Assembly: GCF_007828955.1 (NCBI RefSeq) | Contig: NZ_VIVR01000001.1 | Location: 4,526,001 to 4,590,000, forward strand | Length of the DNA: 64,000 nt | DNA from: Kitasatospora atroaurantiaca | GTDB taxonomy: Bacteria; Actinomycetota; Actinomycetes; Streptomycetales; Streptomycetaceae | Reading direction: 5' to 3' | Part shown: in pieces, positions 44,724 to 49,064 of the stretch | Numbering within the stretch: the stretch's first letter is position 1 | Layout of the letters: the number at the start of each line of letters is the position of its first letter | The notes under the pieces: generated by a model | The model's input: the letters and a program-made list of their open reading frames with translations, nothing else | Told to the model about the DNA's origin: nothing | Database searches by the model: none | Program-made: the position numbers and the translations under genes

Positions 44724-46343
44724 ATGGCGGCCACTGCAGACCACAGCACCACCGGGGCTTCGAACTCGGCGTACTACGTCACCACCCCGATCTACTACGT
44801 GAACGATCGCCCGCACCTGGGCCACGCGTACACGACCGTCGCGGGCGACGTGCTCACGCGCTGGCACCGCCAGCGCGGCGAGAAGGTGTGGTACCTCACC
44901 GGTACGGACGAGCACGGCCAGAAGATCCTGCGGACGGCCGAGGCCAACGGCGTCACCCCGCAGGAGTGGTGCGACAAGCTGGTCGAGGAGGCCTGGAAGC
45001 CGCTCTGGCAGCACCTGGGCATCGCCAACGACGACTTCATCCGGACGACCCAGCCGCGGCACACCGCCCGCGTGCAGGAGTTCGTCCAGGACCTGCACGA
45101 CAAGGGCGAGATCTACAAGGGCGGCTACTCCGGCCCGTACTGCGTCGGCTGCGAGGAGTACAAGCTCCCGAACGAGCTGCTCCCCGGTGCGACGGACGAC
45201 GAGAAGCTCTGCCCGATCCACAAGAAGCCGGTCGAGTGGCTGGAGGAGGAGAACTACTTCTTCCGTCTCTCCGCGTACGGCCCGAAGCTGCTCGAGTTCT
45301 ACGCCGCCAACCCCGACTTCATCGCGCCCGCCTCGGCGCGCAACGAGGTGCTGCGCTTCGTCGAGCAGGGCCTGCAGGACCTCTCGATCTCCCGCTCCAC
45401 CTTCAACTGGGGTGTGCCGCTGCCCTGGGACGAGAAGCACGTCCTCTACGTGTGGGTGGACGCACTGCAGAACTACATCACCGCCGCCGGGTACGGCGCG
45501 GACCCGGAGCGCTTCGCCGAGCTGTGGCCGGCCTCGGTGCACCTGGTCGGCAAGGACATCCTGCGGTTCCACGCGGTGATCTGGCCGGCGATGCTGATGG
45601 CCGCCGGGCTGCCGTTGCCCAAGCGCGTGGTCGCCAACGGCTGGCTGATGGTCGGCGGCGAGAAGATGAGCAAGTCCAACCTGACCGGCATCGCGCCGCA
45701 GGACCTCACCTCGCACTTCGGCGTGGACGCCTACCGCTACTACTTCCTGCGGGCGATCCCGTTCGGCACCGACGGTTCCTTCTCCTGGGAGGACTTCGGC
45801 GCCCGGTACACCTCCGAGCTGGCCAACGACTTCGGCAACCTCGCCTCGCGCGTCGCCGCCATGGTCGGCAAGTACTTCGAGGGCTCGCTGCCGGCCGCCA
45901 CCGCCGCCGGTGACGCCGAGCAGGCCGTCGCCGACGGTCTGGTGACCGCGGTCCGGGTGGCCGACCGGAAGATCGGTGAGGACCTGGACTTCGCCGGCGG
46001 CATCGCGGCGATCTTCGAGTTCATCAAGCAGGTCAACGGCTACCTCACCGAGCAGGAGCCGTGGAAGGTCGCCAAGGACGAGTCGGCCGAGGGCCAGGCG
46101 CGCCTCGCGACCATCCTCTACACCGCCGCCGAGGCGCTGCGGGCGACGGCCGTGCTGCTCAACCCGGTGATGCCGACGGCCGCCCAGAAGCTGTGGGACT
46201 CGCTGGGTGCGGAGGCGGGCCTGGGTTCGCTCGCCGACCAGACCATCGCCGCCGTCGCCGACTGGGGCCGCCTGCCGGTGGGCTCCACCGTCACCAAGGG
46301 CGACATCCTGTTCCCGCGCCTCGAAGAGAAGCCGACCGCCTGA
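44724..46343 (+). CDS. metG: methionyl-tRNA synthetase
   Basis: A 539-residue class I synthetase that charges tRNA-Met. It has the HIGH-type motif HLGH (about 31-34), a zinc knuckle region with CVGCEEY and CPIH, NWGVPLPWDEKHVLYVWVDAL for methionine binding and KMSKS (near 314-318). The C-terminal helical anticodon domain is complete, and there is no trailing Trbp111 domain. The gene starts the metG-tatD-rsmA-ispE run; its TGA overlaps the tatD ATG by one base (TGATG). Confidence 0.96.
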   Translation: MAATADHSTTGASNSAYYVTTPIYYVNDRPHLGHAYTTVAGDVLTRWHRQRGEKVWYLTGTDEHGQKILRTAEANGVTPQEWCDKLVEEAWKPLWQHLGIANDDFIRTTQPRHTARVQEFVQDLHDKGEIYKGGYSGPYCVGCEEYKLPNELLPGATDDEKLCPIHKKPVEWLEEENYFFRLSAYGPKLLEFYAANPDFIAPASARNEVLRFVEQGLQDLSISRSTFNWGVPLPWDEKHVLYVWVDALQNYITAAGYGADPERFAELWPASVHLVGKDILRFHAVIWPAMLMAAGLPLPKRVVANGWLMVGGEKMSKSNLTGIAPQDLTSHFGVDAYRYYFLRAIPFGTDGSFSWEDFGARYTSELANDFGNLASRVAAMVGKYFEGSLPAATAAGDAEQAVADGLVTAVRVADRKIGEDLDFAGGIAAIFEFIKQVNGYLTEQEPWKVAKDESAEGQARLATILYTAAEALRATAVLLNPVMPTAAQKLWDSLGAEAGLGSLADQTIAAVADWGRLPVGSTVTKGDILFPRLEEKPTA

Positions 46344-47218
46344 TGGCCTCCCCCGACGACCGGTCGACCCCACCGCCGCTGCCCGCCCCGCTGGCGGTGG
46401 CGGTGGCCGACTCGCACACCCACCTGGACATGCAGTCCGGCACCCCGGCCGCGAGCCTCGCCAAGGCCGCGTCGGTCGGCGTGACGGCGGTCGTCCAGGT
46501 GGGCTGCGACGTGCCCGGCTCGCGCTGGGCCGCCTCGCTGGCGGCCGAGTTCGACGCCGTGCACGCGGCCGTCGCCCTGCACCCCAACGAGGCGCCCCGC
46601 CTCGTCCTGGGTGACCCCGACGGCTGGTCGGGCAGGAAGCGCACGCCCGGCGGCCACCAGGCGCTGGACGCCGCGCTCGCCGAGATAGACGCGCTCGCCG
46701 CCCTGCCGCAGGTGAAGGCCGTCGGCGAGACCGGGCTCGACTATTTCCGCACCGGGCCCGAGGGCGTGGACATCCAGAAGGAGTCCTTCCGCCGCCACAT
46801 CGAGATCGCCAAGCGCCACGGCAAGGCGCTGGTGATCCACGACCGGGACGCCCACCAGGACGTCATCGAGTTGCTGCTGGCGGAGGGCGCCCCCGAGCGC
46901 ACGGTCTTCCACTGCTACTCCGGCGATGCCGAGATGGCCAAGATCTGCGCCGAGCACGGCTGGTACCTCTCCTTCGCCGGGCCGGTCACCTTCAAGGCCA
47001 ACCAGCCGCTGCGCGACGCCCTCACCGTCACCCCGCTCGACCGGGTGCTGATCGAGACCGACGCCCCCTTCCTCACCCCGCACCCGTACCGGGGCCGCCC
47101 CAACGCCCCGTACCTGATCCCGGTCACGCTGCGGTCGATGGCGGAGACCCTCGGGCTGCACGAGGACGAGCTCGCCACGGCGATCGCCGCCAACACGGCG
47201 CGCGCCTTCGGGTACTGA
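46343..47218 (+). CDS. TatD family hydrolase
   Basis: A 291-residue metal-dependent hydrolase of the amidohydrolase fold. DSHTHLD (about 23-29) supplies two metal ligands, GETGLDYFR (near 132-140) the Glu, VIHDRDAH the next His, FHCYSG another and ETDAPFLTP the Asp. Family members are 3'-5' exonucleases acting on DNA or RNA and quality-control factors. The start overlaps the metG stop. In most actinobacteria an rpfB gene comes next; here only 20 bp separate tatD from rsmA. Confidence 0.92.
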
Positions 47219-47238
47219 GGCGCACGTATCCTTGCGGG

Positions 47239-48120
47239 GTGAGCAGCACCGATCCCACCCCTGACAGCCACCTCCTGGGCGCCTCCGACATCCGGGAGCT
47301 GGCCGCCACGCTGGGCGTGAAGCCGACCAAGCAGCGCGGGCAGAACTTCGTCATCGACGGCAACACGGTCCGGCGCATCGTCCGGGCCGCCGAGGTGACC
47401 GGCGAGGACGCGGTGGTCGAGGTCGGCCCCGGGCTCGGCTCGCTCACCCTCGCGCTGCTGGAGGTCGCGGCGCACGTGACGGCGGTGGAGATCGACCCGC
47501 TGCTCGCGCAGCACCTCCCCACCACCATCGCCGCCCGGATGCCCGGGCGCGCCAAGGACTTCGACCTCGTCCTCAGCGATGCCATGGAGGTCACCGAACT
47601 CCCCGGCCCGCCGCCCACCGCGCTGGTCGCCAACCTCCCCTACAACGTCGCCGTCCCCGTGCTGCTGCACATGCTGGCGACCTTCCCCAGCATCGAGCGC
47701 ACGCTGGTGATGGTGCAGAGCGAGGTCGCCGACCGGCTCGCGGCCAAGCCCGGCAACAAGGTCTACGGGGTGCCCTCGGTCAAGGCCAACTGGTACGCGG
47801 ACGTGAAGCGCTCCGGGGCCATCGGCCGGAACGTCTTCTGGCCCGCGCCCAACGTCGACTCCGGTCTGGTCTCGCTGGTGCGCCGGCAGCCGCCCGCGAC
47901 CTCGGCCACCCGCCAGGAGGTCTTCGCGGTCGTGGACGCCGCCTTCGCCCAGCGCCGCAAGACCCTGCGGGCCGCGCTGGCCGGCTGGGCGGGCTCCCCG
48001 GCCGCCGCCGAGCAGGCGCTGGCCGCCGCCGGCATCGACCACAAGCTGCGCGGCGAGATGCTGACGGTGGAACAGTTCGCCGCCATCGCCGAGCACAAGC
48101 CGAAGGTACCGGTCCTGTGA
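47239..48120 (+). CDS. rsmA: 16S rRNA (adenine1518-N6/adenine1519-N6)-dimethyltransferase
   Basis: A 293-residue KsgA-type methyltransferase that dimethylates two adjacent adenines near the 3' end of 16S rRNA during ribosome assembly. It has KKxxGQNFxID-like [10 protein letters not shown] (near 34-43), SAM loop [11 protein letters not shown] and the catalytic NLPYNV line (near 134-139). The C-terminal helical domain is complete. It starts with GTG just after a 20-bp gap from tatD and overlaps ispE by 4 bp (GTGA). Confidence 0.95.
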
Positions 48121-49064
48121 TCACTGTTCGGGTCCCCGCCAAGGTCAACGTCCAGCTCGGCGTCGGCGGACTGCGCGCCGACGGCTTCCACGACCTGGCC
48201 AACGTCTTCTTCGCGGTCGCCCTCGGCGACGAGGTGACCGCCACCCCGGGCGAGGGCGTCACCCTCTCCTGCACGGGCCCGGACGCGGCGAGCGTCCCGC
48301 TGGACGACACCAACCTCGCCGCCCGCGCGGCCCGCCTGCTCGCCGCCCACCACGGCATCGAGCCGGGCGTCCACCTGCACATCGCCAAGTCCATCCCGGT
48401 GGCCGGCGGCATGGCGGGCGGCAGCGCCGACGGGGCCGCCGCCCTGGTCGCCTGCGACGCCCTCTGGGGCCTGAACACGCCCATGGACGTCCTCCTCGAC
48501 CTCGCCGCCGAGCTCGGTTCCGACGTCCCCTTCGCCCTGATCGGCGGCGTCGCGCTGGGCCGGGGCCGGGGCGAGATCCTGGAGCCGCTGCCCGTCACCG
48601 GCACCTTCCACTGGGTCTTCGCCGTCGCCGACGGCGGCCTCTCCACCCCGGCCGTCTTCCGCGAGTGCGACCGCCTCCGCGACGAGGCCTTTGTCGGCTC
48701 TGCCGACCAGGGGGCGGGGTCGGGCTCCGCCGCCACCGAGGTCCCCACCCCGGACGCCGACGCCGCCCTGCTCGCCGCCCTCGCCGACGGTGACCCGGCC
48801 GCCCTCGCGGCTGCTCTCACCAACGACCTCCAGCCCGCCGCCCTCTCCCTGCGCCCGGCCCTCGCCGACACCCTCCGCGCGGGCACCGACGCCGGTGCCA
48901 TCGGCGCGCTGGTCTCCGGCTCCGGCCCCACCTGCGCCTTCCTCGCCAAGGACGCCGAAGCGGCGGCCGCCATCGCCAAGGCCCTCACCGGCTCCGGCAC
49001 CTGCCGCACTGCCCATGCAACGTACGGCCCCGTCCCCGGCGCACAGGTTCAGCCCGGCGTTTGA
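48117..49064 (+). CDS. ispE: 4-diphosphocytidyl-2-C-methyl-D-erythritol kinase
   Basis: A 315-residue GHMP kinase of the non-mevalonate isoprenoid pathway, phosphorylating CDP-methylerythritol. [11 protein letters not shown] (4-14) is the substrate start motif, [17 protein letters not shown] (near 96-112) the ATP loop and [10 protein letters not shown] (near 263-272) the third GHMP motif. A 20-residue Gly/Ser/Ala insert sits near 197-215. The GTG start overlaps the rsmA stop. Conserved partner of rsmA in actinobacteria. Confidence 0.95.

Follow-up and report, generated by a model that had tools for sequence, protein, structure and literature searches.

The absence of rpfB from its place between tatD and rsmA in Kitasatospora atroaurantiaca reflects a genuine loss of the gene, which is old and has occurred repeatedly, and losses of this kind are already known from firmicutes. 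Taken as a whole, the account that we favour has in our estimate a probability of about 85%, viz. that rpfB was ancestrally present at this place, that it was lost stepwise in the branch comprising Kitasatospora and Streptacidiphilus, with a stage in part of Kitasatospora at which Uma2-family genes stood at the site, and that the putative promoter of rsmA was spared by the deletions.

The tatD-rsmA junction in K. atroaurantiaca

The DNA analysed here (the window) is a stretch of 64,000 nucleotides, bases 4,526,001-4,590,000 of a genome that consists of a single contig of 7,871,666 bases (G000). Within it, tatD ends with TGA, rsmA starts with GTG, and the spacer between them, GGCGCACGTATCCTTGCGGG, is 20 bp long and contains no rpfB, while the order metG-tatD-rsmA-ispE is intact and rsmA and ispE overlap by 4 bp (Table 1). 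The original prediction had described just such a 20-bp gap with rpfB missing and all other members in order, and it is borne out by the exact coordinates and by Pfam matches for all four genes, the last of which is presumably ispE, a name that we take from its place after rsmA. Among named RsmA proteins, the one nearest to the window copy comes from Kitasatospora sp. MAP5-34 (94%), and metG copies that are 86-93% identical are found upstream of tatD in nine of the ten loci L006-L015, the exception being L013, in which none was found.

Table 1. Features of the tatD-rsmA region (window positions) and Rpf proteins encoded in the K. atroaurantiaca genome
Feature	Location	Strand	Evidence or type
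metG, methionyl-tRNA synthetase	44724..46343	+	PF09334 (tRNA-synt_1g), 361 bits
tatD, TatD-family DNase	46343..47218	+	PF01026 (TatD_DNase), 240 bits
tatD-rsmA junction, 20 bp, site of rpfB in relatives; contains putative rsmA core promoter	47219..47238	+	sequence and junction comparison
putative -10 box (TATCCT) for leaderless transcription of rsmA, 12 to 7 bp upstream of GTG	47227..47232	+	conservation
rsmA (ksgA), 16S rRNA adenine dimethyltransferase	47239..48120	+	PF00398 (RrnaAD), 155 bits
ispE, 4-diphosphocytidyl-2-C-methylerythritol kinase	48117..49064	+	GHMP kinase N and C domains
L001, 300 aa	about 54 kb downstream of junction		Rpf-LysM
L002, 248 aa	G000:C1:5880948		Rpf-LysM
L005, 113 aa	beside L002		Rpf-only, short form
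L003, 275 aa	G000:C1:260790		Rpf-LysM
L004, 381 aa from start used	L004:1393-2538, G000:C1 near 1176222		Rpf-LysM-NLPC_P60

Absence of rpfB throughout the genus Kitasatospora

A recent deletion of rpfB confined to this strain or species, which the very short and tidy 20-bp junction could suggest, is extremely improbable in view of the results for other members of the genus. In the genus sample of 70 Kitasatospora genomes, in which the window genome is counted, DUF348 was found in none when 23 candidates were scored per genome, the same depth of scoring at which it was found in 161 of 297 family genomes. When all candidates were scored, it was again absent from 37 of 37 Kitasatospora genomes, with 21 of the 61 genomes in that scan being positive. 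Matches to G5 over the cut-off were likewise seen in 0/70, the single match below it being in G033. Further, no rpf match was found upstream of rsmA in any of the 69 other Kitasatospora regions (2.5 kb each; tblastn, E 1e-3) using a query that did detect the divergent Rpf of seven loci of the genus g16. Junctions of 17-26 bp are also present in nine relatives (L111, L120, L123, L127, L129, L138, L150, L157 and L158), and rpf is lacking in all ten of the named loci L006-L015. These loci, of which five carry the genus name Kitasatospora and the other five Streptomyces, overlap the genus sample and are not independent of it. Upstream of rsmA, tatD is found in 68 of the 69 other Kitasatospora genomes; in the exception, G218 (L109), the junction is rearranged and a protein kinase gene with TPR repeats stands in the place of tatD on the rsmA strand (L109:212-2356). 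The absence of rpfB thus looks like an old, genus-wide trait of Kitasatospora, neither recent nor local. A literature search combining Kitasatospora with rpfB or resuscitation-promoting factor found no title on such a loss of rpfB.

Search for rpfB elsewhere in the genome

If rpfB had been relocated to another place in the genome, then the Rpf gene L001, which lies downstream of the junction (Table 1), would be the candidate to consider. However, its product is an Rpf-LysM protein without DUF348 or G5, and although it is the best match in this genome to an RpfB-type Rpf domain used as query, the identity is 39%. The genome search for PF06737 that had been put forward as a check recovered five Rpf proteins, all of them elsewhere and none of the RpfB type: four have LysM, one of these four also has NLPC_P60, and none has DUF348 or G5. 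The best DUF348 (PF03990) match in the genome scored 16.6 bits (E 0.067), below the cut-off of 24, in a search admitting E values up to 10, and no G5 (PF07501) match was obtained at E 0.1 with 6/6 candidates scored. Across the genus, the six best matches to the RpfB-type query, which were made into loci (L187-L192, 47-53% identity), do not have the pattern of the RpfB type, and the ends of most of these proteins look by eye like those of Rpf-LysM proteins. It is therefore very improbable that rpfB was relocated. Of the clean deletion or relocation of a wall-lytic factor that had been suggested at first, the loss of the factor stands for the lineage, whereas relocation (no DUF348 or G5) and a private deletion (0/70) do not. 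As a separate observation, the DNA of L002 and L003 is 95% identical over 787 bp, one copy lying within 0.3 Mb of the contig end, and this pair looks like a recent duplication.

Ancestral state of the site

The genes tatD, rpf and rsmA are found in one stretch in 7 of the 10 outgroup loci (order and class; L087, L089, L090, L091, L093, L094 and L095), all three genes not being shown in L086, L088 and L092. An rpf match adjoins rsmA in 61 of the 70 other named loci L016-L085, and among the nine without such a match are L051 and L085, whose sequence starts at the edge of a contig. Where the RpfB at the site was scanned (L016 from Yinghuangia, L020 and L033 from Streptomyces), it consists in 3/3 cases of three DUF348, one G5 and one Rpf domain. 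Because the outgroups carry the gene at this very place, its absence from Kitasatospora represents a loss. The original prediction had set against such a loss the case of a lineage trait, with close relatives also lacking rpfB here and the gene ancestrally elsewhere; the relatives do lack it, but the outgroup loci place the ancestral gene here and not elsewhere. As to the conserved run metG-tatD-rpfB-rsmA-ispE from which that prediction started, it holds for rpf in the outgroups and named loci but not for metG. The latter adjoins tatD also in L016, L017, L022 and L081, but in the remainder of L018-L080 and L082-L085, almost entirely Streptomyces, it was not found upstream of tatD. The junction of metG and tatD is a second point at which this run has changed.

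It could alternatively be supposed that rpfB was never present in this branch and was gained by Streptomyces and others, and in the family scan (23 candidates scored per genome) DUF348 was indeed not seen in 10 of the 17 genera (g1, g16, g17, g21, g24, g25, g26, g28, g29 and g30). However, besides the outgroup loci, a gain of this kind is opposed by the RpfB-like remnant at the site in the Streptacidiphilus group and by a passage in the survey of Ravagnani et al. (2005, PMC1084345), according to which the place between tatD and ksgA is taken in both phyla by rpfB or its firmicute counterpart. Such a gain is accordingly most unlikely. The same survey, in the part bearing on this point, already names species that have lost the rpfB counterpart with the neighbouring genes intact.

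Reduction of rpfB in the family Streptomycetaceae

The rpfB site exists in four states in the family: a full RpfB, an Rpf domain only, a membrane segment with one DUF348, and no rpf. The Rpf-only state is seen in L081 and L178-L184, whose proteins of 218-317 aa have by eye an RpfB-like N-terminal segment, and the site genes of the Streptacidiphilus group encode Rpf without DUF348 or G5 in 5/5 scanned. In these comparisons, g16 is read as Streptacidiphilus, as S. carbonis (L081) falls among the g16 rows of the tree, and g23 as Streptomyces, as the row of G278 is identical in the tree to that of S. atratus L047. The third state, a membrane segment with one DUF348 and no Rpf match, is found in L047, L063, L066 and L070 as well as in L208-L212 (5/5), the Pfam scan of this form having been done for L047 and L210. 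One example of how this form ends is provided by L047, L066 and L070, in which the sequence directly before rsmA, CGGCCGTAGGCTT, is identical to the end of the intact rpfB of L037, and the stretch preceding it is decayed (57-61% identity to L037 over the aligned 157-180 bp). The fourth state, in which rpf was not found at the site, is represented by Kitasatospora, by g25 (L175-L177) and g17 (L185), with 2.7-3.6 kb of other sequence at the site in L176 and L177, by S. smyrnaeus and S. spirodelae (L064 and L084), and by 15/15 further DUF348-negative genomes (L193-L207; four of g23, eight of g20, two of g21 and one of g26).

A tree based on TatD and RsmA with 79 chosen rows shows 11 changes in the presence or absence of rpf and 13 changes among the four states, the number of losses resting on this two-gene tree of chosen rows, in which several nodes are weak and the long row L105 is probably misplaced. 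Kitasatospora and the Streptacidiphilus rows come out as sister groups, with support of 100/96 (95/94 in another tree). With the direction of the state changes taken from the outgroups, rpfB looks to have been lost or trimmed repeatedly, and in different ways, across the Streptomycetaceae.

These states suggest the following course of events for the branch of interest. The ancestral order would have been tatD-rpfB-rsmA-ispE, with an RpfB consisting of a membrane segment, three DUF348, G5 and Rpf. The DUF348 and G5 parts, which comparison finds missing, would then have been lost in the Kitasatospora/Streptacidiphilus branch, and of the two lineages Streptacidiphilus would have kept the Rpf-only gene, with the whole gene being lost, probably as a later step, in an ancestor of the sampled Kitasatospora.

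Uma2-family genes at the junction

In many members of Kitasatospora the site is occupied by a gene of the Uma2 family or by a piece of one. Of the 70 Kitasatospora junctions, 20 contain a full Uma2 gene, 6 a 5'-truncated copy, 4 a 3'-end piece only and 39 none, and 1 is rearranged. The script classes for 69 junctions were 22 full, 8 part and 39 none, the 30 positives then being split by the start of the alignment. L128 is the weakest of the four tail-only cases, and its tail continues without a stop. All six truncated copies keep the end that is next to rsmA. PF05685 was confirmed by Pfam in two copies of different type, which are 27% identical over 117 aa, and the second type was seen in one genome (L108), which is the nearest tree row to the window.

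Rows with these genes are spread irregularly over the genus tree, where the Uma2 state changes 18 times. Uma2 distances and metG-tatD distances for 19 sequences are loosely correlated (r = 0.35, with none of 2,000 permutations giving a value as high). We read these results as indicating that much of the genus probably had Uma2 genes early on, which were then trimmed repeatedly, with some exchange of alleles; alternatively, they may have been gained repeatedly. Further, in the Uma2 proteins of L114, L122, L126, L130 and L160 the C-terminal parts appear by eye to be nearly identical and the N-terminal parts quite different, as if the junction Uma2 alleles recombine within the genus.

Because a Uma2 gene or piece fills the site in 30 of the 70 Kitasatospora junctions, the 20-bp spacing in the window may be secondary. 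If, however, the lineage of the window never passed through a Uma2 stage, then its junction would be the direct product of the deletion of rpfB, and to this we assign roughly even odds. The window junction is one of the 39 counted above that have no trace of Uma2, presence changes often on the tree, and the nearest relative has a Uma2 gene of a different type, while L120 and L127, which stand with L108 and the window genome in one supported set of four, have none. On the other side, rows near the window carry Uma2 (full genes in L106 and L108, a tail in L107), and the truncated copies retain the end adjoining rsmA. In the account that we favour, Uma2-family genes would have taken up the site in some Kitasatospora after the loss of rpfB, and several of them, whose remnants are seen, would have been trimmed from the 5' end.

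A putative leaderless promoter of rsmA

Within the 20-bp junction lies a putative -10 box for rsmA. The motif TA[TG]CCT occupies positions -12 to -7 relative to the GTG in 69/69 Kitasatospora junctions (the window included and L109 left out), a result that is partly built in because the GTG start was chosen with the help of the motif. In the loci L016-L085, which include the two starting at the edge of a contig (L051 and L085), TA..CT was found between -14 and -10 relative to an in-frame start for 64 of the 67 anchored loci, as against 3 of the 18,292 other ATG or GTG in the same loci; for this count the frame was fixed from the protein and several in-frame starts were allowed per locus, 3 of the 70 being without an anchor. 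For S. coelicolor, a passage in PMC4895711 gives TANNNT at -10 and reports 21% of primary starts to be leaderless. The spacing of the -10 TANNNT in the window, together with its conservation, allows transcription to start at the rsmA start codon, and we infer that rsmA has a putative leaderless promoter of its own.

The position of this box relative to rpfB differs among loci that retain the gene. As read from the sequence, it lies inside the last rpfB codons in L025, L033, L036, L037 and L071, where the rpfB stop overlaps the rsmA start; rpfB ends before the box in others, e.g. L020 and L041. In the junctions of other rpfB losers, TANNCT was seen by eye in 11 of 13, L206 having TAAGGT and none being seen in L200. 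In the junctions examined, the deletions would accordingly nearly always have spared the TANNCT box before the rsmA start, and we infer that the promoter limits rpfB deletions on their right side. Since rsmA seems to own a promoter, rpfB could probably be removed without silencing rsmA-ispE. This arrangement differs from that in M. tuberculosis, where, according to a passage in PMC6009663, rpfB belongs to a single operon together with ksgA and ispE and no start site separates rpfB from ksgA, whereas rsmA here has a putative promoter of its own.

The remaining Rpf proteins

With rpfB lost, the wall-cutting task would be left to the other Rpf proteins, i.e. four LysM-anchored proteins, one of them with NlpC/P60, and one short protein. 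The number of PF06737 matches per Kitasatospora genome has a median of 7.5, a mean of 7.70 and a range of 4-16 (n=70). For g23, genomes with DUF348 have a median of 5 and a mean of 5.23 (n=130) and those without a mean of 3.83 (n=23), and for g20 the means are 5.63 with DUF348 (n=19) and 4.25 without (n=16). In these counts, for which at most 18 candidates were scored per genome and which are compared without correction for kinship, the losers in g23 and g20 have about one match fewer and Kitasatospora has more, yet the window genome has five. We considered compensation by Rpf copy number in Kitasatospora and set it aside for the window genome, whose five matches are no more than in S. coelicolor, for which a passage in PMC5693915 reports five Rpf proteins and a mutant without all five that still germinates. 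In one Kitasatospora genome, four Rpf matches of equal score in equal 173-aa frames (G024:C1:690190, 704609, 1793211 and 7206480) suggest a recent amplification.

Long Rpf proteins, hand-picked from the PF06737 matches, differ in their peptidase part. Those from g23 have an M23 peptidase in 5/5 scanned, with LysM just under the cut-off in L224, and two further ones from g20 and g28 have M23-like ends, as judged from the ends. Those from Kitasatospora (four) and g16 (one) have NLPC_P60 in 5/5 scanned. The Rpf-LysM-NlpC/P60 protein L004 and the M23 form of the five Streptomyces proteins thus represent a swap of the peptidase part. Among the matches listed, most of the best alignments of the NlpC/P60 form in 41 Streptomyces-group genomes stop before the NlpC part; however, the form is not exclusive to the Kitasatospora/Streptacidiphilus branch, as in 4 of the 41 (G342, G347, G353 and G354) the alignment extends to residue 420-423 of 444.

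Relationship to known systems and significance

With respect to the RpfB of Streptomyces and Mycobacterium (DUF348-G5-Rpf, in the order tatD-rpfB-ksgA-ispE), the neighbours and their order on both sides are the same here, but the gene itself is missing. Four of the five Rpf proteins here resemble the Rpf-LysM proteins of Streptomyces, which we take to be of the RpfA type, and the fifth is a short Rpf-only protein; compared with the long Rpf proteins of Streptomyces (M23 in the five scanned), one protein here has a C-terminal NlpC/P60 peptidase. A closer parallel to the loss is the firmicute loss of spsB/rpfB from tatD-(rnmV)-ksgA (Ravagnani et al. 2005), where, in the portion of the survey that deals with it, a wall gene is likewise gone and its neighbours are in order. 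However, the loss reported here concerns sporulating actinobacteria, extends to all sampled members of a genus and is repeated in the family, and it differs further from that portion of the survey in the cut-down forms of the gene, in the occupation of the site by Uma2 genes in some members of the genus and in the retention of a putative rsmA promoter.

Walls of Kitasatospora mix LL- and meso-DAP, RipA is an NlpC/P60 enzyme, and DUF348 may restrain RpfB. Mycobacterial RpfB is described in a passage of PMC4255298 as acting with RipA. A broader proposal, which we offer as speculation and regard as rather unlikely to hold in full, is that the piecemeal dismantling of RpfB was enabled by rsmA's own promoter, which in some lineages lies inside the end of rpfB and survives there when the gene decays, and that the tethered DUF348-Rpf protein was replaced in Kitasatospora and Streptacidiphilus by a larger set of secreted LysM-Rpf proteins. 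This set would include Rpf-NlpC/P60 fusions, which would combine a partnership like that of RpfB and RipA in one chain and might be tied to the mixed wall of Kitasatospora.

The neighbourhood of rpfB, which is conserved from firmicutes to actinobacteria, has been read in passages of PMC1084345 and PMC6009663 as a unit linking the re-opening of the wall with ribosome maturation. A spore-forming family in which rpfB has been lost, halved or trimmed in sister lineages provides a set of natural mutants for the role of DUF348 and G5, and the same natural mutants bear on whether the link to rsmA matters. The main interest of these results, beyond the 20-bp gap alone, lies in the graded dismantling of RpfB within one family together with a putative promoter that survives it.
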